A DNA stretch of 64,000 bases. Source: Verrucomicrobiota bacterium. Lineage in GTDB: Bacteria; Verrucomicrobiota; Verrucomicrobiia; Limisphaerales; J093. Shown piece after piece: positions 3,960-29,806 of the stretch (its first letter is position 1; every line of letters begins with the position of its first letter). The DNA lies in the NCBI GenBank assembly GCA_022710935.1, contig JAKLFY010000016.1, positions 1-64,000 on the forward strand. Reading direction: 5' to 3'. Below the pieces are notes generated by a model that was not told the DNA's origin, did not search any database, and saw only the letters and a list, made by a program, of their open reading frames with translations. The translations under genes and the position numbers were made by a program.

Positions 3960-4620
3960 TCCGCCGGAGGGGCGACGGCCTCGTCGCCCGCAAACAGGGT
4001 CCGCGGCTGCGATCGTGGGGGGACGAGGACGTCCCCGCTCCTGCGCCTTCGTGTGTGCGAGCAGAGCGCCGGAGAGGCGACGGCCTCGTCGCCCGCAAAC
4101 AGGGTCCGCGGCTGCGTTCGTCGGGGACGAGGACGTCCCCGCTCCTGCGCCTTCGTGTGTGCGAGCAGAGCGCCTGAGGGGCGACGTCCTCGCCGCCCGC
4201 AAACAGGGTCCGCGGCTGCGTTCGTCGGGGACGAGGACGTCCCCGCTCCTGCGCCTTCGTGTGTGCGAGCAGAGCGCCGGAGAGGCGACGGCCTCGTCGC
4301 CCGCAAACAGGGTCCGCGGCTGCGTTCGTCGGGGCCGAGGACGTCCCCGCTCCTGCGCCTTCGTGTGTGCGAGCAGAGCGCCGGAGGGGCGACGGCCTCG
4401 TCGCCCGCAAACAGGGTCCGCGGCTGCGTTCGTCGGGGACGAGGACGTCCCCGCTCCTGCGCCTTCGTGTGTGCGAGCAGAGCGCCGGAGGGGCGACGGC
4501 CTCGTCGCCCGCAAACAGGGTCCGCGGCTGCGTTCGTCGGGGACGAGGACGTCCCTGCTCCTGCGCCTTCGTGTGTGCGAGCAGAGCGCCGGAGGGGCGA
4601 CGGCCTCGCCGCCCGCAAAC
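3960..4620. repeat. Tandem array of a 104-bp unit, about six and a half copies
   Basis: The marker CAAACAGGGTCCGCGG (last copy degraded) recurs with starts at 3991, 4096, 4200, 4304, 4408, 4512 and 4616: spacing 105 once, then exactly 104 five times. Each unit holds two perfect short hairpins with 4-nt loops: GGCGACG-GCCT-CGTCGCC (first copy 3971-3988) and GGGGACG-AGGA-CGTCCCC (first copy 4019-4036). Copies differ by a few substitutions, for example the third copy has TCCT CGCC in the first hairpin. Since 104 is not a multiple of three and the unit lacks stops in several frames, long spurious open frames run through it on both strands. The first and last copies are partial. There are no unique spacers, so it is not CRISPR. 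Confidence 0.95.
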
Positions 4621-4716: not shown

Positions 4717-5373
4717 ATGCAATCCAAAGTTGAAGTGCTGAATCGGATCAAGACGACAGGAGTCGTTGCGGTGATTCGAGCGGAGCGTCCGGACGATCTG
4801 ATCGACGTGTCGCGCGCGTTGGTCCAAGGCGGCGTCTGTTGCGTCGAAATCACTCTCACCGTGCCGGGCGCGATTCGAGTCATCGAAGAGGCGTCGTTGG
4901 CTCTTGGAGATGACGTGGTGATCGGCGCGGGGACCGTTCTTGATGCCGAGACGGCGCGCGCCGCGATTCTTGCCGGGGCGGGGTTTGTCGTATCCCCGGC
5001 GTTCCGACCGGCCGTGGTGGAAGTCTGCCGGCGTTATTCGATTGCGTGCATGCCCGGGGCGATGACCCCGACAGAAATCCTGGCCGCATGGGAGGCGGGT
5101 GCGGACGTGGTCAAGGTCTTCCCGGCGGGTGTGGGCGGGCCCCGGTTTTTCAAGGACATCAAGGGGCCGTTTCCGGAGATCGAGCTGATGCCCACCGGGG
5201 CAGTCAATCTCGATACGGCGCCCCAGTTCATCAGGGCAGGGGCGTGTGCCGTGGGGGTGGGGGGTGAACTGGCAGGCAAAGCCGTCATCGCCGCCCGCGA
5301 TTTCGAACGCATCTCGAAATCGGCCCGCGCGTTCGTTGAGGTGGTGCGCAAGGCGCGCGGGCTTCTGACGTGA
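4717..5373 (+). CDS. eda: KDPG/KHG aldolase
   Basis: Predicted 218-residue class I aldolase of the Entner-Doudoroff pathway, splitting 2-keto-3-deoxy-6-phosphogluconate into pyruvate and glyceraldehyde 3-phosphate; many family members also cleave 4-hydroxy-2-oxoglutarate. Family landmarks are in order: GVVAVIRAE (Arg of the active site), VEITLTVP with the catalytic Glu44, GAGTVLDAE, PGAMTPTEI, and VVKVFPA with the Schiff-base Lys133. Length is typical (about 205-220). The start at 4717 follows GGAACTGGAGACGAACC, which contains a Shine-Dalgarno-like GGAG. It stands alone, after the tandem array and about 200 bp before the cytochrome cluster. No gluconate or uronate genes are nearby to define its physiological substrate. 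Confidence 0.95.
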   Translation: MQSKVEVLNRIKTTGVVAVIRAERPDDLIDVSRALVQGGVCCVEITLTVPGAIRVIEEASLALGDDVVIGAGTVLDAETARAAILAGAGFVVSPAFRPAVVEVCRRYSIACMPGAMTPTEILAAWEAGADVVKVFPAGVGGPRFFKDIKGPFPEIELMPTGAVNLDTAPQFIRAGACAVGVGGELAGKAVIAARDFERISKSARAFVEVVRKARGLLT

Positions 5374-5574: not shown

Positions 5575-6228
5575 ATGAGAAGCGCGCTTCAATCATGGGT
5601 GCCGGTGGCATTTATCGCTTCTGCGGCTGTTTTGGTGTTTGATCCGCTGCCCCCGCACGTGCCGATCAGCCCGCCCACGCCCGTGCCGTCATGGGCGGCG
5701 GACCCGACCCCGGTGCGCCAGCCCACGATGCGTCCGATCTATCGCTTGGCCGGGTACACGTACGAGTGCATGGAGTGCCATCGGATCATTCCGTCGCCGG
5801 AGGAGACGCTGCGTCCCTTGACTCAGCACACGGAGATCGAGTTCAATCACGGCATCAACACGCGCTGTTTCAACTGCCACCATCGCCAGAATCGCAACGC
5901 CTTTGTGGACGATTTTGGCGCGGAGATAGCCTGGGGACAGCCGCAGCTCCTGTGCGCGAAGTGTCACGGACCTGTCTACCGCGACTGGCAGGCCGGATCG
6001 CACGGCCGGAGCAACGGCTATTGGGACACCGCCCAGGGTGAGCGGGTGCGCCTGCGGTGCATCGAGTGCCACGATCCCCATGCGCCGCCTTTTGGCTCGA
6101 TGGCGCCCGCGCCGGGCCCGAACACGCTCCGGATGGGCGTGCCGGCGCCGCCTGCGCACGGCGGAAAGCGCGATCCGCTGCGGGTCTACTCCGGCGCTGA
6201 AGGGGCGGGCGATTCCCACGGACACTGA
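5575..6228 (+). CDS. Membrane-anchored or secreted tetraheme c-type cytochrome
   Basis: Predicted 217 residues with an N-terminal hydrophobic segment (VPVAFIASAAVLVF) and four CxxCH haem c motifs: CMECH, CFNCH, CAKCH and CIECH. Electron carrier in the periplasm, probably held by the uncleaved N-terminal helix. The ATG at 5575 puts the signal at the N-terminus; the frame is open a little further upstream. It is the first gene of a tight cluster: the ferredoxin begins 2 bp after its stop. Cytochrome plus Tat-exported ferredoxin plus NrfD-type subunit is the architecture of the DsrJ-DsrO-DsrP part of the Dsr complex and of related quinone-linked modules, but DsrJ has three haems. Likely role, by inference: electron relay between the ferredoxin/NrfD module and the octaheme enzyme encoded at the end of the cluster. 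Confidence 0.85.
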   Translation: MRSALQSWVPVAFIASAAVLVFDPLPPHVPISPPTPVPSWAADPTPVRQPTMRPIYRLAGYTYECMECHRIIPSPEETLRPLTQHTEIEFNHGINTRCFNCHHRQNRNAFVDDFGAEIAWGQPQLLCAKCHGPVYRDWQAGSHGRSNGYWDTAQGERVRLRCIECHDPHAPPFGSMAPAPGPNTLRMGVPAPPAHGGKRDPLRVYSGAEGAGDSHGH

Positions 6229-6230
6229 TT

Positions 6231-7259
6231 ATGGCCCAAGCCGACACGCCGCGCCGACCGAATCCCGCCTCCGCGGGGGACGGGGCGGTGTCGCGTCGGG
6301 GGTTCCTGGGCAAGAGCGCGGCTGCGGCTGCCGGGTTGGCGGCGCTGGCCGCGGCGATGTCGCCGCTGCGGCATCTCAAGGAGGGCGATCTGCCGTCCGT
6401 CGAGGAGTTTCTCCAGAAGCACTACAAGGAGATGACGGCTGCCCAGAAGGCGCGGGCGCTCGAGCGGATTCGCGAGCGGGTGCGCACGCGACATCGGGTC
6501 GACGCCGTCGTCACGGATCCGCCGCCGATGGACGGGGTCGAATACGTGTACGGCCTGAACATCAGCCGGTGCATCGGGTGTCGCAAGTGCGTGCATGCGT
6601 GTGTGGCCGAGAACAACCAGTCGCGCGCACCCGAACTCCAGTACATCCGGGTGCTCGAGATGGAGAAGGGGAGCATCGATGTCGAGACGGCCAATCACCA
6701 TTACGATCCGCCGTCGGTGCCGCGTCCCGACAAGTGGTACATGCCCGTCCAGTGCCATCAGTGCGCCAATCCGCCCTGTGTGAAGGTGTGTCCGGTCGAG
6801 GCGACGTGGCAGGAGCCGGACGGCATCACGGTGATCGACTATGACTGGTGCATCGGGTGCCGGTATTGCGAGGCGGCGTGCCCCTACTGGGCGCGGCGAT
6901 TCAACTTCGCGGAGCCGCGGATCCCCGGGGACGCGATCAATCCGGAGATTTCCTATCTGTCGAATCGTCCGCGGGAAAAGGGTGTGATGGAGAAATGCAC
7001 CTTCTGCCTGCACCGGACGCGAGTCGGGCGCCTGCCGGCCTGCCTCGAGGTTTGCCCGACCGGGTCGCGCAAGTTCGGCAACGTGCTCGATCCGAACAGC
7101 GAGGTGCACTACATTCTCAAGCACAAACGCGTCTTCGTGCTGAAGGCTGATGTGGGCACCCTGCCCAGGTTCTTTTACTACTTCGACGAGCGGGGCAGCC
7201 GCTATCACGATCCGATCGAGCCTGGACGCCCGGGGCAGGCGGCGGGGGAGGGCGCATGA
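6231..7259 (+). CDS. Tat-exported 4x[4Fe-4S] ferredoxin (NrfC/DsrO/HybA type)
   Basis: Predicted 342 residues. A twin-arginine signal, SRRGFLGKSAAAAAG, lies near residue 22. Four cysteine clusters of the DmsB/NrfC/DsrO family follow: CIGCRKCVHAC, CHQCANPPCVKVCPVEA, CIGCRYCEAACPYWARRF, and CTFCLHRTRVGRLPACLEVC. Sixteen cysteines for four [4Fe-4S] centres are therefore present. The protein is expected outside the cytoplasmic membrane, passing electrons between the NrfD-like quinone-reactive subunit and cytochromes. The gene starts 2 bp after the tetraheme cytochrome and its stop overlaps the start of the NrfD-like gene by 4 bp (ATGA), so translational coupling is likely. No molybdopterin catalytic subunit is encoded nearby, which argues against a DmsABC or PsrABC type enzyme. 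Confidence 0.9.
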   Translation: MAQADTPRRPNPASAGDGAVSRRGFLGKSAAAAAGLAALAAAMSPLRHLKEGDLPSVEEFLQKHYKEMTAAQKARALERIRERVRTRHRVDAVVTDPPPMDGVEYVYGLNISRCIGCRKCVHACVAENNQSRAPELQYIRVLEMEKGSIDVETANHHYDPPSVPRPDKWYMPVQCHQCANPPCVKVCPVEATWQEPDGITVIDYDWCIGCRYCEAACPYWARRFNFAEPRIPGDAINPEISYLSNRPREKGVMEKCTFCLHRTRVGRLPACLEVCPTGSRKFGNVLDPNSEVHYILKHKRVFVLKADVGTLPRFFYYFDERGSRYHDPIEPGRPGQAAGEGA

Positions 7260-8515
7260 AACGGTACCTGACGTTTCTCTGGGATTGTTTCCGACTGAGC
7301 TTTGTCGGCGACTGGCGCTACCACGCGTGGATGACGGCGCTGACCCTCGTGGCGCTGGGCGGTGTGTACGCCTATTGTCATCAATTTGTGCATGGTCTCG
7401 CGGTCTCGGGCATGACGGACCAGGTGTCGTGGGGGATGTACATCGCGAACTTCACCTACCTGGTCGGCCTGGCGGCGGCGGCGGCGATGCTCGTCATTCC
7501 GGTCTATGTCTACCGCAACCTGCACCTGCACGACGTGGTCATCTTCGGCGAACTGCTGGCCGTGTCGGTGATCGTGATGTGCCTCCTGTTTGTAATGGTC
7601 GATCTGGGGCGTCCGGATCGGTTCCATCACCTCCTGCTGCGGTTCAACTTTCCGATGTCGATGCTCACGTGGGACGTGATTGCGCTCAATGGTTACCTGC
7701 TGTTGAATCTGCACATTTGCGGATACCTGATTTACTGTGCGTACTGCGGCCGCAATCCGTCGAAGAAGTTCTACATACCCTTCGTGTTCATTGCGATCGC
7801 CTGGGCCATTAGCATCCACACCGTCACGGCGTTCCTCTATGTCGGTCTGGGGGGCCGCCCGTTCTGGAACTCGGCGATCATCGCGCCTCGGTTTCTCGCC
7901 AGCGCGTTTGCCGCCGGACCGGCGTTCATCATCCTGACCCTCCAGATCGTCCGGCACTTTACCTCGCACAAGGTGAGCGACGACGCGTTGTTCACCCTGC
8001 GCCGGATCGTCCAGGTGGCGTTGATCATCAATCTGTTCCTGCTGCTGTGCGAGCTGTTCACCGAGTTCTACGCGGACACCCATCATATCGCCTCCGCCCA
8101 GTATCTTTTTCTGGGTCTGCACGGATACAACGCCCTGGTCCCCTGGATCTGGACGGCCGTCGCCATGAACGTGGTGGCGACGACCCTGTTCATGCTGCCC
8201 TTGTCTCGGGCGCTCAAAACTCTCAATATTGCCTGCGTGCTCGCCATCGTCGGAATCTGGATCGAGAAGGGGATGGGGCTGATCGTCCCCGCATTCATTC
8301 CGTCGCCGCTCGGCGAGATCGTCGAGTACAGCCCCACGCCGCATGAGACCATGATTTGCCTGGGGATTTGGGCTTTCGGTCTCCTCGTTTACACCATCCT
8401 GGTCCGCGTGTCCGTCCCGGTCCTTGCGGGACAGGTCACCTACGCCCCTCGTTGGAGCCGCTCACGTCAAGAACCTGTGGCGCCGGTTGCGGCGCCCGTT
8501 CCGGAGAACACTTGA
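7256..8515 (+). CDS. NrfD/DsrP-type integral membrane quinone-reactive subunit
   Basis: Predicted 419-residue polytopic protein with about ten membrane helices, for example VSWGMYIANFTYLVGLAAAA, FGELLAVSVIVMCLLFVMVD and VWTAV-type segments further on. It fits the NrfD/PsrC/DsrP/HybB family that exchanges electrons or protons between (mena)quinol and a periplasmic iron-sulfur protein. The segment VDLGRPDRFHHLL is the conserved 'D-GRP-R' signature of the family. The length is closer to DsrP/HybB (10 helices) than to NrfD/PsrC (8 helices). The start overlaps the ferredoxin stop. The octaheme cytochrome gene begins 5 bp after its stop. Taken with the ferredoxin, this forms the quinone-linked half of the cluster. 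Confidence 0.9.
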   Translation: MKRYLTFLWDCFRLSFVGDWRYHAWMTALTLVALGGVYAYCHQFVHGLAVSGMTDQVSWGMYIANFTYLVGLAAAAAMLVIPVYVYRNLHLHDVVIFGELLAVSVIVMCLLFVMVDLGRPDRFHHLLLRFNFPMSMLTWDVIALNGYLLLNLHICGYLIYCAYCGRNPSKKFYIPFVFIAIAWAISIHTVTAFLYVGLGGRPFWNSAIIAPRFLASAFAAGPAFIILTLQIVRHFTSHKVSDDALFTLRRIVQVALIINLFLLLCELFTEFYADTHHIASAQYLFLGLHGYNALVPWIWTAVAMNVVATTLFMLPLSRALKTLNIACVLAIVGIWIEKGMGLIVPAFIPSPLGEIVEYSPTPHETMICLGIWAFGLLVYTILVRVSVPVLAGQVTYAPRWSRSRQEPVAPVAAPVPENT

Positions 8516-8520
8516 ACACC

Positions 8521-10014
8521 ATGAACACGAACCATGCCCGAATTCTGATCGGCCTGCTGAGCGTCGCGGCCGCCGCTGCGGTTGGGCCCCTGGCGCGCGG
8601 GCAGGCCTGGGGATTGCCTGCGCTGTCGAAGGAGACCCAGGCGTGCCTGGAATGCCACCGGCAGGACAACGCCGGCATTTACCAGCAATGGGGCGCCAGC
8701 AAGCATTACCGCGCCAACGTCGGCTGCTTCGAGTGCCACATGGCCGCCGAGAACGATCCCGACGGCTACGCGCACGAAGGCCAGCGCATCGCGACCGTCG
8801 TGTCACCCAAGGACTGCGCCCGGTGCCATAGCGCCGAGACGGAGGAATTCGCCCAATCCCATCACTCGAAGGGCGCCCGCATCCTGGGATCGCTCGACAA
8901 CACACTGGCCGAGGTGGTCGAGGGCAACCGGGGAATGCGGACCACGGCGTATCCGGAGGGCGTCAGTGCCGCGGCGGTCAACGGCTGCTGGCAGTGCCAT
9001 GGGAGCGAGATCAAGGTCCTGCCCAACGGCAAGCTCGACGCCGCCACATGGCCCAACACCGGCATCGGGCGCATCAACCCGGACGGCTCCGAGGGTTCCT
9101 GCTCCGCGTGTCACAGTCGACACTCGTTCTCGGCCGAGCAGGCGCGCAACCCGGACAACTGCGGCAAGTGCCACATGGGGCCCGATCATCCCCAGATGGA
9201 GATCTACAACGAATCCAAACACGGCATCGCCTTCCGCGCATTCAAGGACAAGTTGAACCTCGATTCCGCAAAATGGATCGTCGGCGAGGATTACAACCTC
9301 GCGCCCACCTGCGCCACCTGCCACATGAGCGCCACCCCGGGTCGTGCCGCCGGGGCGAACCGGCCGGCCTTGCCGGCCCTGCGGGTGTCCCACGACGTCG
9401 GCATGCGGATCAGTTGGAACAATCGTCCGGAGATCTCGATTCGTCCTGAAGCGAGCGACCGGAAGATGGGGTTGCCGGGGGCGGAGGTGAACTGGGAGAC
9501 GCGCCGCAACACCATGAAGAACGTGTGCAGCAACTGCCACGAGGATCAATGGGTCAACAACTTCTATGTCCAATACGACAGCCTGATTGACCTGTATCAC
9601 CAGAAGTTCGCCGAGCCGGGCCTGGAACTCTACAAGCTGGCCAAGCCGCTCATGGCGCCGGTCCAGTTCGCCAACAAGCTGGATTGGACCTGGTACGAGC
9701 TGTGGCACCACGAGGGCCGCCGCGCCCGCCATGGCGCCTCGATGATGGGGCCCGATTACACCCATTGGCACGGCACCTACGAGGTCGCCAAACATTTCTA
9801 CGGCAAGATGCTGCCCGAACTCGAGGAATTGACCCAGAAAGGCCGCGCGTCCGGAGATCCGAAGAAGACCGAAGCCGCCGACGCGCTGGCCAAGAAGATC
9901 GAGACCGTGCTCAACACGGCCAATCACAGTTGGCACATCGACAAGATGGATCCAGCCGAGAAGGCCGAGCGCGAACGGCGCCAGCAGGAGTTCCAAAAGC
10001 GCTACGCCAAATAG
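8521..10014 (+). CDS. Octaheme c-type cytochrome of the hydroxylamine oxidoreductase (HAO) family
   Basis: Predicted 497 residues with a Sec signal (ILIGLLSVAAAAAVGPLARG). Eight CxxCH motifs: CLECH (Cys42), CFECH (Cys69), CARCH, CWQCH, CSACH, CGKCH, CATCH and CSNCH. The opening CLECHRQDNAGIYQQWGASK and a later second haem, plus the C-terminal helical region with DWTWYELWHHEGRRARHGAS and MMGPDYTHWHGTYEVAKHFY, are characteristic of the HAO family. A Tyr in DYTHWHG may correspond to the Tyr that cross-links to the P460 haem in oxidative HAO; the alignment needed to decide was not available. If it aligns, oxidation of hydroxylamine or hydrazine is possible. If not, reduction of nitrite or hydroxylamine to ammonium, as shown for epsilonproteobacterial HAO, is more likely. 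No NrfA (pentaheme with CxxCK) is present. The start is the ATG 5 bp after the NrfD-like stop. Confidence 0.9.
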   Translation: MNTNHARILIGLLSVAAAAAVGPLARGQAWGLPALSKETQACLECHRQDNAGIYQQWGASKHYRANVGCFECHMAAENDPDGYAHEGQRIATVVSPKDCARCHSAETEEFAQSHHSKGARILGSLDNTLAEVVEGNRGMRTTAYPEGVSAAAVNGCWQCHGSEIKVLPNGKLDAATWPNTGIGRINPDGSEGSCSACHSRHSFSAEQARNPDNCGKCHMGPDHPQMEIYNESKHGIAFRAFKDKLNLDSAKWIVGEDYNLAPTCATCHMSATPGRAAGANRPALPALRVSHDVGMRISWNNRPEISIRPEASDRKMGLPGAEVNWETRRNTMKNVCSNCHEDQWVNNFYVQYDSLIDLYHQKFAEPGLELYKLAKPLMAPVQFANKLDWTWYELWHHEGRRARHGASMMGPDYTHWHGTYEVAKHFYGKMLPELEELTQKGRASGDPKKTEAADALAKKIETVLNTANHSWHIDKMDPAEKAERERRQQEFQKRYAK

Positions 10015-10391: not shown

Positions 10392-10514
10392 CGCTTGCGC
10401 TTGCCACAGTCATCGAGGCGGGATCAACCACCGGTGCACACGGCGCAGGAAACACGGTGCGGCGCCCTGCACCACGCGATGAGAACTGAGCGTGCAACAG
10501 AGGGCAGCGAGGGG

Positions 10515-13500
10515 ATGCCGACTCCCGATTTCGTCTCACGCAAACGGGAGATCCAGCGCGGGCTGGTGCGGAGCAACACGGCGACGGGTGTGGTGTTGGT
10601 GGTGACGCTGTTGCTCGCGGTTGCCGCGGTGTTCTATGCGCTGACCGCGGAGAAGCACGCGGAGGCGGCGCGCGTCGCCACGCGGCAAACGCGGGCGGAG
10701 TTGTGGAAGGCCCAGTTGGCGCAGGCGACCGCGTGGCGCCTGAGCAGCCGGGCGGGGCGTCGGAGCCGCGGTCTCGAAGCCATCGCCAACGCGGCTCGAC
10801 TTCGACCTTCACTCGAACTGCGCAACGAGGCACTTTCCACTTTGCCGCTGATCGACACCCAGCCGGGGCCGCCCGGATTGGCCCTGCGCGAGACTGACAT
10901 CGCCTGCGCTTTCGCGCCGGGCCGCGGCTTGCGGGCCTGGGGGGACCCGCGGGGGCGTGTGACTGTGGGGCGACTCGAGGGCACGAACGCAGTGGCGACA
11001 GTCGTCCTTCCCGGCCGCATCATGGCCCTGGTTTTCAGTCCGGACGAGCGTTGGCTTGCAGCCTACTCGCACCGAGGCGGACTGTTCGCGGGAGACCCGC
11101 TGGCCGAGCGTCCGGCGCTGCGGTTGTCCCTGCCCGCGGGCGAATTCAATCAGCACGCCCTCAATTTCCATCCCGACAGCTCCCTGCTTGCAGTCTGCGC
11201 GCCGCAAGAACAGGTCCGATTCATCCGCCTCGATTCGGGTGTGGAACTGCCGCCTTTGGCCCCCGGGGGGCCACCGGGGGCAGCCGTTTTCGACGCTGCC
11301 GGCGAGCGCCTGGCCGTGGTCTCGGGCGACCGCATCCGCATTTTTGACTTCGGCACGCGCGCGCTGGTGCAGACCATTGAACTTCCGGCCTACGCGTTGG
11401 ATCTGGCGTGGCATCCGGAGGGGCGCCATCTGGCGGCGGCGTGCAGCGACGGCAAGATTCTGTTGGTGGCGGCGAATGGCCAGGCCACGTTCGCTCTGCG
11501 CGGCCACACGGGCTTGGCCACCCGCGTGATCTTCGATCCGACCGGGGCGGTGTTGGTCTCGACCGCGTGGGACGGCACCACGCGCTTTTGGGGCGCCTCC
11601 TCCGGGTGGCCCCTGCTCGTCGAGGACTCGGGTTACGCCCGGCAGTTCGACAGTTCGGGTCGACGCCTTTTCCATCACAAGGAGGGTACGGGGTTGGGGG
11701 AATGGCACTTCGTGCCCCCGATCGGGCTGGAGACTCTGTCGACGCCCGTCGACGGACCCCGCACGGTCCACGCGCTCGATTTCAGCCCCGATGGAGCCTG
11801 CCTGGCCGGCGTGACCAGCGGTGGCGTGTGCCTCTGGGACAGCCACGCCGGCCGCCTCGAAGCCACGCTGGCCATCCCGGGCGCATTGGGCGTCGCGATC
11901 GCCGCCAACGGACAGGCCGTGTTGGTCGCGGGGCGGGCCGGCTTGCAGCAAACGGCGATCGAGCGGACGGATGAGGGGAGACTGATGTTCGGCGGCTCGC
12001 TGCAACCGGTCGAAGGTTGGGACGGCGCCGCGTTGAGCTGGGGCTTCGTCGTCCACGGACCATCCGACCGTTTTGTCAGCGGCGACGGGGCGCGGATTGT
12101 GGTGGCCGACCTCGCGCCGGGAGGAAGTGTTCGCACTCTCGATGTCCCGGGCGCGTTCACCTCGCTGGCCTTGAGTCCGGACGGACGGTGGCTGGTCACG
12201 AGTTTTTGGAAAGGCAACGGCACGCGTGTCTGGAATGTCGAAACGGGGCAGCTCGATCGACGGTTGGAAGACGAGGGCGGCATGACCGCCTTCAGCCCCG
12301 ATGGCAGCCGGTTGGCGGTGGGGACTGCCCGCGAGTTCGTTCTCTACGACACATCGGACTGGACTCGGGCCCGGCGCATCGAGCGGGACGCAGCCAGCGC
12401 GCTCAGCGGCCTCGTGGCCTTCAGTCCGAACGGAGAGTTTCTGGCACTCACTCCCGCGTTGCGCCAGGTGCGGCTGATTTCCGCCTCCGACTGGGAGGAA
12501 TTGGCCACGCTGGAAGGCCCCGTCCCGGATCGGATCAACGCCCTCTCCTTCAGTCCGGACAGCCGGCGTCTGGCCGCCGCCACCGACAACGGGGCGGTCC
12601 AGGTTTGGGACCTGCCGGTCTTGCGACAGGAACTGGCCGCCCTGAGTCTGGACTGGGCGGGCGAACAGCAGCCTGCGACGGCGCCGTCGTCGGTTGCCGC
12701 AGTTGCCGGCCGGACGGGATTCCCGGATGAGGCGTCGGGAGTCGAGACCTGGACGCGGCGGCGATCGCTGCGGACCGGGGCGCTTTGGCTTTCGGGGACC
12801 GGAGCGGCGTTGGGCGTACTGTTGGGGCTCTACAGTCTGCGGCATCAGCGCCGCCTGGTGGCGGCCTACGACACTCTTGATGCCCTGGCCCAGCGTCGGC
12901 GGCAGGCCCTTGAATCGGCCCAGGCCCAGTTGGTTCACAGCCAGAAGATGACCGCGCTCGGCACCCTCGCGGCCGGGGTGGCGCATGACTTCAACAACCT
13001 CCTCTCGATCATTCGAATGGCGGGCCAATTGGTCCGGCGCCAACTTCGTCCCACAGGCGGCGCACTCGAGAATCTCGACGCGATCGAACAGGCGGTCGAG
13101 CAGGGCAAGAGCATCGCGCATTCGATCCTCGGCTACAGCCGGCGCCCGGGCGATCCCAACCAGCTCTACCGCGTCAGCGAGGTCATGAGCGAGACGCTGT
13201 CCATGCTCAACAAGCAATACCTCAGCGGCATCGTGCTCACCCTCGAACAGGATCCCGAGGCGCCTTCGGTGCGGGGCGACAAGAACCGGTTCGAGCAAGT
13301 GCTGCTCAACCTGATCGTCAACGCGGTCGAGGCGATGCAGGCACACGGCAAACTGACGTTAAGAGTCCGCGGAAGAACCCAGGGCAGCACTGGCGGCGTT
13401 CTTCCGGCCAGGCCAGCGGGCCGGTACGTCGAGGTGACCGTGAGCGACACAGGCGCGGGCATTGCGTCGGAGCTGCGCACCCGGATCTTCGAGCCGTTCT

Positions 13501-13733
13501 TCACGACCAAACAGAGCGGCGGCGAGCACGGGACAGGCCTCGGTCTCACAACGGTCTACACCATCGCCCGCGACGAGGGTTGGGGCCTCGACCTCGACAC
13601 CGAGCCGGGTCGAGGGACGACTTTCTGTGTCCTGGTGCCCGCCGCGGACGGCGCCCCGGTCGAACCGGGTGGGCGCGACTTGCCCATTCCCCCCGGAGCC
13701 GACGCGGCACAGACTGGGCGCGAGGTTCCATGA
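10515..13733 (+). CDS. Hybrid WD40-propeller sensor histidine kinase
   Basis: Predicted 1072 residues. Order: a membrane helix (about 25-43, VVLVVTLLLAVAAVFYAL), a WD40 type sensory region (to about 740) with repeated 'FSPDG/D..LA' blades (VFSPDERWLAAYSH, DFSPDGACLAGVTSG, AFSPDGSRLAVGTAREF, SFSPDSRRLAAATDNGAVQV), a second helix (about 755-775), a coiled coil, a HisKA domain with GVAHDFNN (His824), and a HATPase_c domain with N box NLIVNAVEA, G1 DTGAGI, F box FEPFFTTK and G2 GTGLGL. All kinase boxes are intact. The propeller is expected outside the membrane because it lies between two helices. Its start overlaps no gene; an in-frame ATG at 10479 is an alternative. The stop overlaps the start of the response regulator by 4 bp, so both form one two-component system. 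The signal is unknown. Confidence 0.88.
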   Translation: MPTPDFVSRKREIQRGLVRSNTATGVVLVVTLLLAVAAVFYALTAEKHAEAARVATRQTRAELWKAQLAQATAWRLSSRAGRRSRGLEAIANAARLRPSLELRNEALSTLPLIDTQPGPPGLALRETDIACAFAPGRGLRAWGDPRGRVTVGRLEGTNAVATVVLPGRIMALVFSPDERWLAAYSHRGGLFAGDPLAERPALRLSLPAGEFNQHALNFHPDSSLLAVCAPQEQVRFIRLDSGVELPPLAPGGPPGAAVFDAAGERLAVVSGDRIRIFDFGTRALVQTIELPAYALDLAWHPEGRHLAAACSDGKILLVAANGQATFALRGHTGLATRVIFDPTGAVLVSTAWDGTTRFWGASSGWPLLVEDSGYARQFDSSGRRLFHHKEGTGLGEWHFVPPIGLETLSTPVDGPRTVHALDFSPDGACLAGVTSGGVCLWDSHAGRLEATLAIPGALGVAIAANGQAVLVAGRAGLQQTAIERTDEGRLMFGGSLQPVEGWDGAALSWGFVVHGPSDRFVSGDGARIVVADLAPGGSVRTLDVPGAFTSLALSPDGRWLVTSFWKGNGTRVWNVETGQLDRRLEDEGGMTAFSPDGSRLAVGTAREFVLYDTSDWTRARRIERDAASALSGLVAFSPNGEFLALTPALRQVRLISASDWEELATLEGPVPDRINALSFSPDSRRLAAATDNGAVQVWDLPVLRQELAALSLDWAGEQQPATAPSSVAAVAGRTGFPDEASGVETWTRRRSLRTGALWLSGTGAALGVLLGLYSLRHQRRLVAAYDTLDALAQRRRQALESAQAQLVHSQKMTALGTLAAGVAHDFNNLLSIIRMAGQLVRRQLRPTGGALENLDAIEQAVEQGKSIAHSILGYSRRPGDPNQLYRVSEVMSETLSMLNKQYLSGIVLTLEQDPEAPSVRGDKNRFEQVLLNLIVNAVEAMQAHGKLTLRVRGRTQGSTGGVLPARPAGRYVEVTVSDTGAGIASELRTRIFEPFFTTKQSGGEHGTGLGLTTVYTIARDEGWGLDLDTEPGRGTTFCVLVPAADGAPVEPGGRDLPIPPGADAAQTGREVP

Positions 13734-14377
13734 ACGAACGTTCCAAAGGGACGATCCTGGTTGTCGAGGACGACCCGCGGCAGATTCGACTTTACGCGCA
13801 GGTGCTCGAGCGCTACCGGTTGGTCTGTGTCAGCACCGGGTCCGCCGCAGTCGCCGCTTTGGCGGAACGCGTTCCGGATCTGATCCTGCTCGATCACGTG
13901 CTCGCCCAGGGCGAATTGGGCCTGGCCTTCCTGCCGCAACTCAAGAAGGTGGCAGCGCACGTGCCGATTATCGTCGTGTCCGGCACGCTCGATATCGCAG
14001 GCCAACTGGCGGCACTCCAAGGCCCGCTCTCCGCCGATTACGTCATCGAGAAACCGGTGGACATCTTCAAACTGGAACAGACCGTCGAGACGGCGCTCAA
14101 CGAATGCGGGCTGGGCGAGGCGGTGCGCACCCTGCGCTCACTCGAACAGGCTGAACTGGTCGAGGACAGCGATCGCGAGCGCCTTTTCACCGAGCGTCTC
14201 GCCCGGCAGCATGAGCTGCTCAAACGCCTTCGCGGCGCCGCCACGCACGCGAATGTGTCCGAATTGGCCGGGGAATTCGGCGTGGACCGCAAGACCATCC
14301 GGCGCGACCTGCGCGATCTGGTCCAGCGCGGCCAACTCCCCGCCGCGGTTCTGCCGCAGAGCCCGGACGATGTGTGA
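13730..14377 (+). CDS. Response regulator with receiver domain and DeoR-like helix-turn-helix
   Basis: Predicted 215 residues. Receiver domain: acidic pocket VVEDDP (Asp14/Asp15), phosphoacceptor Asp55 in LILLDHVL, SGT switch residue, and Lys108 in VIEKPVD. A linker follows, then a C-terminal winged-helix-like segment with LAGEFGVDRKTIRRDLRDL, which resembles the DeoR/HTH_11 recognition region. A receiver joined to a DeoR-type HTH is less common than OmpR or NarL outputs. The start ATG overlaps the kinase stop (ATGA), so the pair is translationally coupled. It probably binds DNA and controls genes not identifiable from this window. Confidence 0.88.
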   Translation: MNERSKGTILVVEDDPRQIRLYAQVLERYRLVCVSTGSAAVAALAERVPDLILLDHVLAQGELGLAFLPQLKKVAAHVPIIVVSGTLDIAGQLAALQGPLSADYVIEKPVDIFKLEQTVETALNECGLGEAVRTLRSLEQAELVEDSDRERLFTERLARQHELLKRLRGAATHANVSELAGEFGVDRKTIRRDLRDLVQRGQLPAAVLPQSPDDV

Positions 14378-29343: not shown

Positions 29344-29622
29344 CTATAACAATGACTGTTCACTCTGCAGCTCTCGTTTCCGTTTCAAGCTGTGCAGCCG
29401 GGTGCTGGCACTCCTCCAACTGCCCAGGTCCAGCCGCCGGGCAATCTCTCCCATCGTCAGTGTCGTTTCCCGGCGTAAACGTGCCGCCAGTTCCAACTTC
29501 TCCTGGTACCGCTCCTCGTACACCGCCTCGAAGGCCTCGGCTGAGCTCGGCCGAAGCCCTCCGAGTGGAAGCGCTCGACCAGACGGTAAAATGGCGATCC
29601 CGCGGTCGCGTATACGCGTCAA
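29344..29622 (-). pseudogene. C-terminal remnant of a REP-associated tyrosine transposase (RAYT)-like gene
   Basis: The frame encodes KLELAARLRRETTLTMGEIA followed by RRLDLGSWRSASTRLHSL, which resembles the C-terminal helix 'LR.ETTMTL.WIA.RL.MG(T/S)W' found in IS200/RAYT-like single-strand transposases. The first ~30 residues do not match. The HUH catalytic domain is absent upstream, so this is an end fragment. It lies directly beside 95-bp REP-like tandem units (29596-29806), which fits RAYT/REP co-residence. Confidence 0.65.
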
Positions 29623-29806
29623 CCTTAGCGAGGCTCAGATGCGGAGCTTGCACGGAAGCTGCCTGGGGACGAGCACGTCCGAAAACGCGAAGTCCCGCCG
29701 CCGCGCATACGCGTCAACCTTAGGGCGGTTGAGATGCGTACCCTGCATGGAAGCCGCCCCGGCACGAACGTGTCCGACAACGCGAAGTCCCGCGGCCGCG
29801 GGAGAG
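29596..29806. repeat. Tandem 95-bp REP-like units, two full copies plus a partial
   Basis: Unit 1 starts at GATCCCGCGGTCGCG (29596) and unit 2 at AGTCCCGCCGCCGCG (29691), exactly 95 bp apart; a third start, AGTCCCGCGGCCGCG, follows at 29786. Common landmarks are TACGCGTCAACCTTAG (29613 and 29708) and GCGAAGTCCCGC. Each unit contains a short stem-loop resembling the GGACG/CGTCC hairpin of the 104-bp array (for example GGGGACGAGCACGTCC), so the two families may share an origin. They lie directly beside the RAYT-like fragment. Confidence 0.85.

Follow-up and report, generated by a model that had tools for sequence, protein, structure and literature searches.

An octahaem epsilon-Hao-type cytochrome encoded with a DsrOP-like membrane module in a Verrucomicrobiota genome

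We analyzed a 64,000-nucleotide stretch of a Verrucomicrobiota metagenome-assembled genome (MAG; GenBank assembly GCA_022710935.1, contig JAKLFY010000016.1, positions 1 to 64,000), referred to here as the window, and focused on a four-gene operon on its forward strand (positions 5575 to 10014). The operon encodes a tetrahaem cytochrome (P1), a ferredoxin-like protein exported by twin-arginine translocation (Tat; P2), an integral membrane subunit (P3), and an octahaem cytochrome (P4) (Table 1). A sequence-only reading of the window had proposed this composition, with intergenic gaps of 2, -4, and 5 bp. The open reading frame (ORF) coordinates reproduce these gaps exactly, and the motifs and the Pfam and NCBIfam profiles agree on a tetraheme cytochrome, a four-cluster Tat ferredoxin, an NrfD/DsrP-like subunit, and an eight-haem enzyme resembling hydroxylamine oxidoreductase (HAO). 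The same reading had listed no NrfA, molybdopterin subunit, or DsrMK, and none was seen in the operon or adjoining it when the ORFs were read by eye.

Table 1. Positions in the window of the four genes and of the residues around haem 4 of P4
Feature	Positions	Strand	Remarks
P1: N-terminally anchored periplasmic tetrahaem cytochrome c, 217 aa	5575..6228	+	4 CXXCH; proposed electron relay from the Fe-S protein to the octahaem enzyme
P2: Tat-exported ferredoxin-like subunit, four [4Fe-4S] sites, DsrO/NrfC type, 342 aa	6231..7259	+	
P3: DsrP/NrfD-type integral membrane subunit, 419 aa	7256..8515	+	Proposed quinol-oxidising site
P4: octahaem epsilon-Hao-type cytochrome c, 497 aa	8521..10014	+	Proposed nitrite/hydroxylamine reductase
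P4 haem 4 motif CWQCH, C156-H160	8986..9000	+	Fourth CXXCH; aligns with the fourth CXXCH of Nitrosomonas europaea HAO (NeHAO)
P4 Asp222-His223	9184..9189	+	Aligned (GPDH / GVDH) with distal Asp267-His268 of NeHAO
P4 Met408, 8 residues ahead of Trp416	9742..9744	+	Kept in 86/86 homologues; epsilon-Hao signature per PMC8940962
P4 Tyr413, tyrosine of DYTHWHG	9757..9759	+	Y 73, I 5, F 4, W 3, H 1 of 86 homologues
P4 Trp416, proposed stand-in for the P460 cross-link tyrosine	9766..9768	+	Trp in 86/86 homologues

The CXXCH motifs of P4 lie at residues 42, 69, 99, 156, 194, 214, 264, and 336, and the start of the protein resembles a signal peptide. P4 matches the HAO-type Multi-haem_cyto family of Pfam (PF13447), and its AlphaFold2 model has the HAO fold (mean predicted local distance difference test [pLDDT], 86.7). 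The closest solved structure, by sequence, Foldseek, and VIA-align alike, is IhOCC of Ignicoccus hospitalis (4qo5; VIA-align Z, 25.1 over 390 residues). Z values were about 18 to 20 for HAO, HOX, and the reducing HAO of Kuenenia (KsHAOr) and 16.8 for hydrazine dehydrogenase, whereas NrfA and octahaem nitrite reductase reached at most 9.8. The protein thus belongs to the HAO fold and not to another multihaem family, as had been expected from the letters alone. In a tree of 51 rows, P4 fell within a clade of 44 that was separated (100/100) from nitrifier HAO, KsHAOr, and HOX; the PDB reference rows of this tree are partial sequences taken from alignments, and the placement of IhOCC, on a very long branch, is unsure. 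The clade includes HaoCA-like pairs with a NapC/NrfH-type tetrahaem neighbor (L015-L017 and L084), and a few relatives have such a neighbor. A tRNA-Tyr called by ARAGORN at 9238-9330 on the reverse strand is antisense to the conserved octahaem gene and is almost surely a false positive.

Haem 4 is the catalytic haem of HAO, and in P4 its distal side is well kept: Asp222 is invariant and His223 is present in at least 90% of 38 sequences. In NeHAO, the cross-link residue is Tyr467, the Y of GGWTYTEGWG. It had been asked whether the tyrosine of DYTHWHG plays this part in P4, which is most likely not the case. Tyr413 was ruled out as the P460 cross-link residue by its poor conservation (replaced in 13 of the 86 homologues) and by the L-INS-i alignment, in which Tyr467 stands opposite His415, one column off Trp416, and not opposite Tyr413; the loop around Tyr467 differs from that of P4 by at least one residue in length, and the column is not fixed by sequence alone. 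In epsilon-Hao enzymes, a tryptophan is reported to occupy the position of the cross-link tyrosine, with a methionine eight residues before it (PMC8940962).

Because the Trp416/Met408 signature is invariant, Tyr413 is not conserved, and the Asp222/His223 pocket matches that of NeHAO, P4 is best read as a reductive enzyme and not as an oxidative P460-type HAO. The sequence-only reading had allowed a quinol-linked route from nitrite or hydroxylamine to ammonium, or its reverse; reduction is the part that fits best. In the reverse case, P4 would oxidise hydroxylamine and P1 to P3 would reduce quinone, as in nitrifiers, and the HAO fold and the conserved distal Asp-His pair are compatible with such an enzyme. 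This direction is disfavoured because the family has Trp416 and Met408 and lacks a conserved cross-link tyrosine; the separation of the P4 clade from oxidative HAO and the napA linkage described below also speak against it, and a search of the host for AmoA gave no match, although it had no positive control, as the control genomes gave no match either. We therefore regard hydroxylamine oxidation as very improbable.

The three remaining genes form the membrane module. P1 has a single N-terminal hydrophobic stretch (residues 3 to 21) and CXXCH motifs at residues 65, 98, 127, and 162. Across 30 homologues, the four motifs and His85, His92, His143, and His169 are all invariant; bis-His ligation is possible because four invariant histidines beside four CXXCH motifs suffice. 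P1 was ruled out as a NapC/NrfH or DsrJ protein, with no profile match in Pfam or NCBIfam. P2 carries the Tat motif SRRGFL (residues 21 to 26), and its cysteines number exactly 16, arranged as four sets of four; 15 of them persist in almost all of 47 homologues, and the other, Cys117, is replaced by Ser or Asn in six. Its best NCBIfam match is DsrO (167 bits, short of the 200-bit cut-off). P3 has at least nine hydrophobic segments, matches DsrP of NCBIfam (NF045798) at 414 bits, above the cut-off of 350, and matches the NrfD family of Pfam at 131 bits. In at least 96% of its 47 homologues, 26 polar residues are kept, including D116, D140, H153, R201, E266, E270, E337, and K338.

By these profile comparisons, the P2/P3 pair is closer to DsrO/DsrP than to NrfC/NrfD. 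The earlier description of an NrfC/NrfD-type quinone module is to that extent revised, whereas the tie between such a module and the octahaem protein recurs in other genomes (see below). P1 to P3 very probably act as a quinol dehydrogenase serving P4, and P2-P3 looks like a plug-in quinol dehydrogenase in place of a NapC-type HaoC. HaoC, a NapC/NrfH-type protein, is reportedly the membrane partner of epsilon-Hao. We treat its presence beside epsilon-Hao as an accessory feature of most cases and not as an obligatory one; it is absent here.

A scan of about 85,000 genomes yielded the best 80 octahaem loci, a selection and not a census. The full P1-P4 cassette is present in 42 of these 80 loci, and five more have it in part, so that the predicted recurrence of the four-gene order in Verrucomicrobiota holds there and well beyond. 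Among the 42 loci, the genes run 1-2-3-4 in 36, 4-1-2-3 in five, and divergently in one, and the order P1-P2-P3 is constant. The cassette lies far beyond chance, because the same set in order recurs across dozens of genomes. Judged by record titles, the carriers come from about seven phyla (Verrucomicrobiota, Planctomycetota, Desulfobacterota, Myxococcota, Bdellovibrionota, Acidobacteriota, and Cloacimonadota); they are mostly MAGs, and individual phylum assignments may be wrong. At L078, the script counted P2/P3 homologues, but these are distant matches (21 to 27%) and were left out. L077 is labelled Epsilonproteobacteria and has the gene order of the Bdellovibrionota loci; its label is probably wrong. 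In G390 (Scalindua, anammox), nine octahaem-type matches lie on several contigs, and L053 among them has the full cassette.

The flanks of these loci link the octahaem gene to napA. We found napA in the flanks of 20 of the 80 loci (13 with the module and 7 without), with a chance expectation of about 0.4 if one napA per 3-Mb genome is assumed. The module also occurs apart from P4. Orthologues of P3 were found in 17 of 387 genomes of the host phylum, three of them with a close P4, and among 12 other Verrucomicrobiota loci that we read, all of which lack P4, five have P2/P3 together with P1-like or other tetrahaem genes beside napA. We take the module to be, most plausibly, a quinol dehydrogenase of general use in the periplasm. 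A module beside NapA would naturally oxidise quinol, which supports the reductive direction for P4. In the Verrucomicrobiota loci L148-L152, napA stands with a tetrahaem gene and P2/P3 homologues, a Nap with an NrfD-type and not a NapC-type quinol donor. At L012 (G289), a second tetrahaem gene (7892-8521) lies between napA and P1 and is a weak homologue of P1 (26%); it might connect Nap to the same module.

Several of the same 12 Verrucomicrobiota loci place P2-P3 near cytochromes with 7 to 13 haems. One could accordingly picture a general electron relay, for example to outer-membrane cytochromes or minerals, with P4 as a carrier and not an enzyme. Those multihaem-cytochrome loci are without P4, however, and P4 itself retains the catalytic residues of the haem 4 pocket, and we consider a relay role quite improbable.

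The host MAG (7.5 Mb; 95.7% complete) contains Hcp. Searches of it found no full-length NrfA (only matches of ∼20 bits), no NapA above the cut-off, no NarG, and no DsrA. Nitrite must then reach the host from outside or through an unrecognised reductase, or else the substrate must be hydroxylamine or nitric oxide (NO). This genome content bears on a further possibility, that P4 stops at hydroxylamine or mainly clears NO and hydroxylamine as protection against nitrosative stress, and that Hcp completes the conversion, as in a reverse hydroxylamine-ubiquinone redox module (reverse-HURM); the quinol module would be the same and the energy gain secondary. The presence of Hcp in a host in which no nitrate or nitrite reductase was found, and of hcp in the flanks of two of the 80 loci (L027 and L069), is consistent with such a role, and pathways combining hao and hcp have been proposed (PMC6896113 and PMC8940962). 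On the other hand, napA near a quarter of the loci points to respiration, and epsilon-Hao enzymes are described as reducers of nitrite to ammonia (PMC9938260). Detoxification as the principal role seems unlikely to us, although it carries some weight.

From the observations above we infer the quinol donor, the order of carriers, the substrate, product, and direction, and a possible role of P3 in moving protons. The whole operon would be a periplasm-facing quinol:nitrite (and/or hydroxylamine) oxidoreductase that works without NrfA. Quinol, probably menaquinol, would be oxidised at P3. From there the electrons would travel along the four Fe-S clusters of P2 to the anchored tetrahaem P1 and on to the octahaem P4, where haem 4 (Cys156-His160), flanked distally by Asp222/His223, would receive them and nitrite would be reduced to ammonium; perhaps some hydroxylamine or NO escapes P4, which the cytoplasmic Hcp could handle. 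As its main reaction, P4 probably reduces nitrite or hydroxylamine in the direction of ammonium. The fuller proposal is a quinol:nitrite ammonification complex that conserves energy through its NrfD-type subunit, possibly by translocating protons. In it, an epsilon-Hao-type enzyme would be joined to a DsrOP-like quinol dehydrogenase that can be exchanged and is shared with NapA, and several phyla would thereby reach ammonium independently of NrfA. This proposal is tentative and may well be wrong.

It is important to note that several observations weigh against nitrite ammonification by this operon. Substrate, product, and direction are not readable from sequence. No nitrate reductase that would supply nitrite was found in the host MAG. 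The AlphaFold2 model of P1 is of low confidence (pLDDT, 69.9) and has no meaningful PDB match. IhOCC, the closest solved structure to P4, has an unproven function, and epsilon-Hao is represented in our tree by the HaoCA-like loci and not by biochemically tested members. Further, the octahaem gene lacks the module in 33 of the 80 loci, many of them in sulfur-oxidising Gammaproteobacteria and Nitrospirota, and the module is therefore not obligatory. Finally, the distance correlation is 0.87 between P2 and P3 but 0.43 to 0.56 between P4 and the module; this contrast would follow from exchange of the module as one block.

Other features of the window lie outside the operon. Directly downstream (10395-14377), the ORFs, read by eye, include a large histidine kinase with WD40 repeats and a response regulator whose C terminus resembles a helix-turn-helix; regulation of the operon by this pair is possible. 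At 26 to 28.6 kb on the forward strand, CydA/CydB-like ORFs of a cytochrome bd-type quinol oxidase were likewise recognised by eye. A GC-rich 104-bp unit is repeated 6.3 times in tandem (96% matches) at 3962-4620, between a gene ending near 3.8 kb and a KDPG-aldolase-like gene at 4717, and several frames of this array are open on both strands. A second tandem repeat, at 29598-29800 (two copies of 95 bp; 81% matches), has no long ORFs around it.

Surveys of nitrate ammonification that count nrfA would miss this cassette, and its octahaem gene, which databases name hydroxylamine dehydrogenase, may be counted as a nitrification gene. Should the NrfD-type P3 move protons, energy would be conserved in nitrite ammonification at a point where a NapC/NrfH-type donor presumably conserves none. 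The swapping of a quinol module between Hao and NapA also makes a modular origin of such complexes directly testable.

The operon resembles several known systems in part. As in NrfABCD, a quinol-oxidising NrfD-type subunit, an NrfC-type subunit, and a small multihaem carrier would feed a multihaem nitrite reductase, but the catalytic subunit here is an octahaem Hao-type protein and not the pentahaem NrfA, and the carrier is tetrahaem and not NrfB. DsrMKJOP shares the closest relatives of P2 and P3, DsrO and DsrP; it differs in that no DsrM, DsrK, or trihaem DsrJ was seen in or beside the operon. In the sulfite reductase MccACD, an octahaem cytochrome is likewise served by Fe-S and NrfD-like subunits, although that cytochrome belongs, as far as known, to another octahaem family, and its substrate is sulfite; MccA was absent among the sequence and fold matches listed for P4, which leaves kinship possible. 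The shared logic of MccACD (PMC8076601), the DsrO/DsrP affinity of P2 and P3, and a published suggestion of sulfur compounds for a similar locus (PMC5276818) would together suit a reductase of sulfur oxyanions (sulfite or tetrathionate). Against this, P4 carries the HAO fold and the epsilon-Hao signature, the neighbors found were nap and hcp (sulfur genes were not screened for), and the host MAG gave no DsrA; we judge a sulfur substrate improbable. IhOCC differs from P4 in being archaeal, in its very long branch, in lacking the distal His, and in having a Phe near the Trp position.

The closest precedents concern nitrite reduction itself. Mardanov 2016 and Slobodkina 2017 (PMC4911364 and PMC5276818) reported a locus of four genes next to nap in Thermosulfurimonas dismutans and Dissulfuribacter thermophilus, with nitrite reduction tentatively suggested for it and sulfur compounds as the alternative (PMC5276818). 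By description of its parts (a cytochrome c, a 4Fe-4S protein, an NrfD-family protein, and a multihaem HaoA homologue) that locus appears to match ours; its hosts are sulfur-disproportionating thermophiles with nap adjoining, whereas here nap was neither near the operon nor found in the genome. The suggested alternative to classic NrfABCD is supported in that P4 would take the place of NrfA, but the arrangement is not unprecedented. Excerpts of a review of NrfD-like complexes (PMC8076601) contain no mention of octaheme or hydroxylamine and no such complex, and hao genes without the tyrosine are reported to be abundant in microbial mats (PMC8940962). The breadth of the cassette, the exchange of the module, its re-use with NapA, and the signature test are new, as we found no earlier report of them in a search that left most subscription journals outside. 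With epsilon-Hao/HaoCA of Campylobacter and Nautilia, which is described as mediating the conversion of nitrite to ammonia (Haase et al. 2017, cited in PMC9938260), the operon shares an octahaem HAO-type enzyme that has no conserved cross-link tyrosine and has the Trp and Met(-8) signature, tied to Nap in organisms without NrfA (Haase et al. 2017 via PMC9938260 and PMC8940962). The membrane partner is what sets it apart, being a tetrahaem, a DsrO-like, and a DsrP-like protein and not the NapC/NrfH-type HaoC, and we read the operon as a widespread, under-described variant of epsilon-Hao ammonification.

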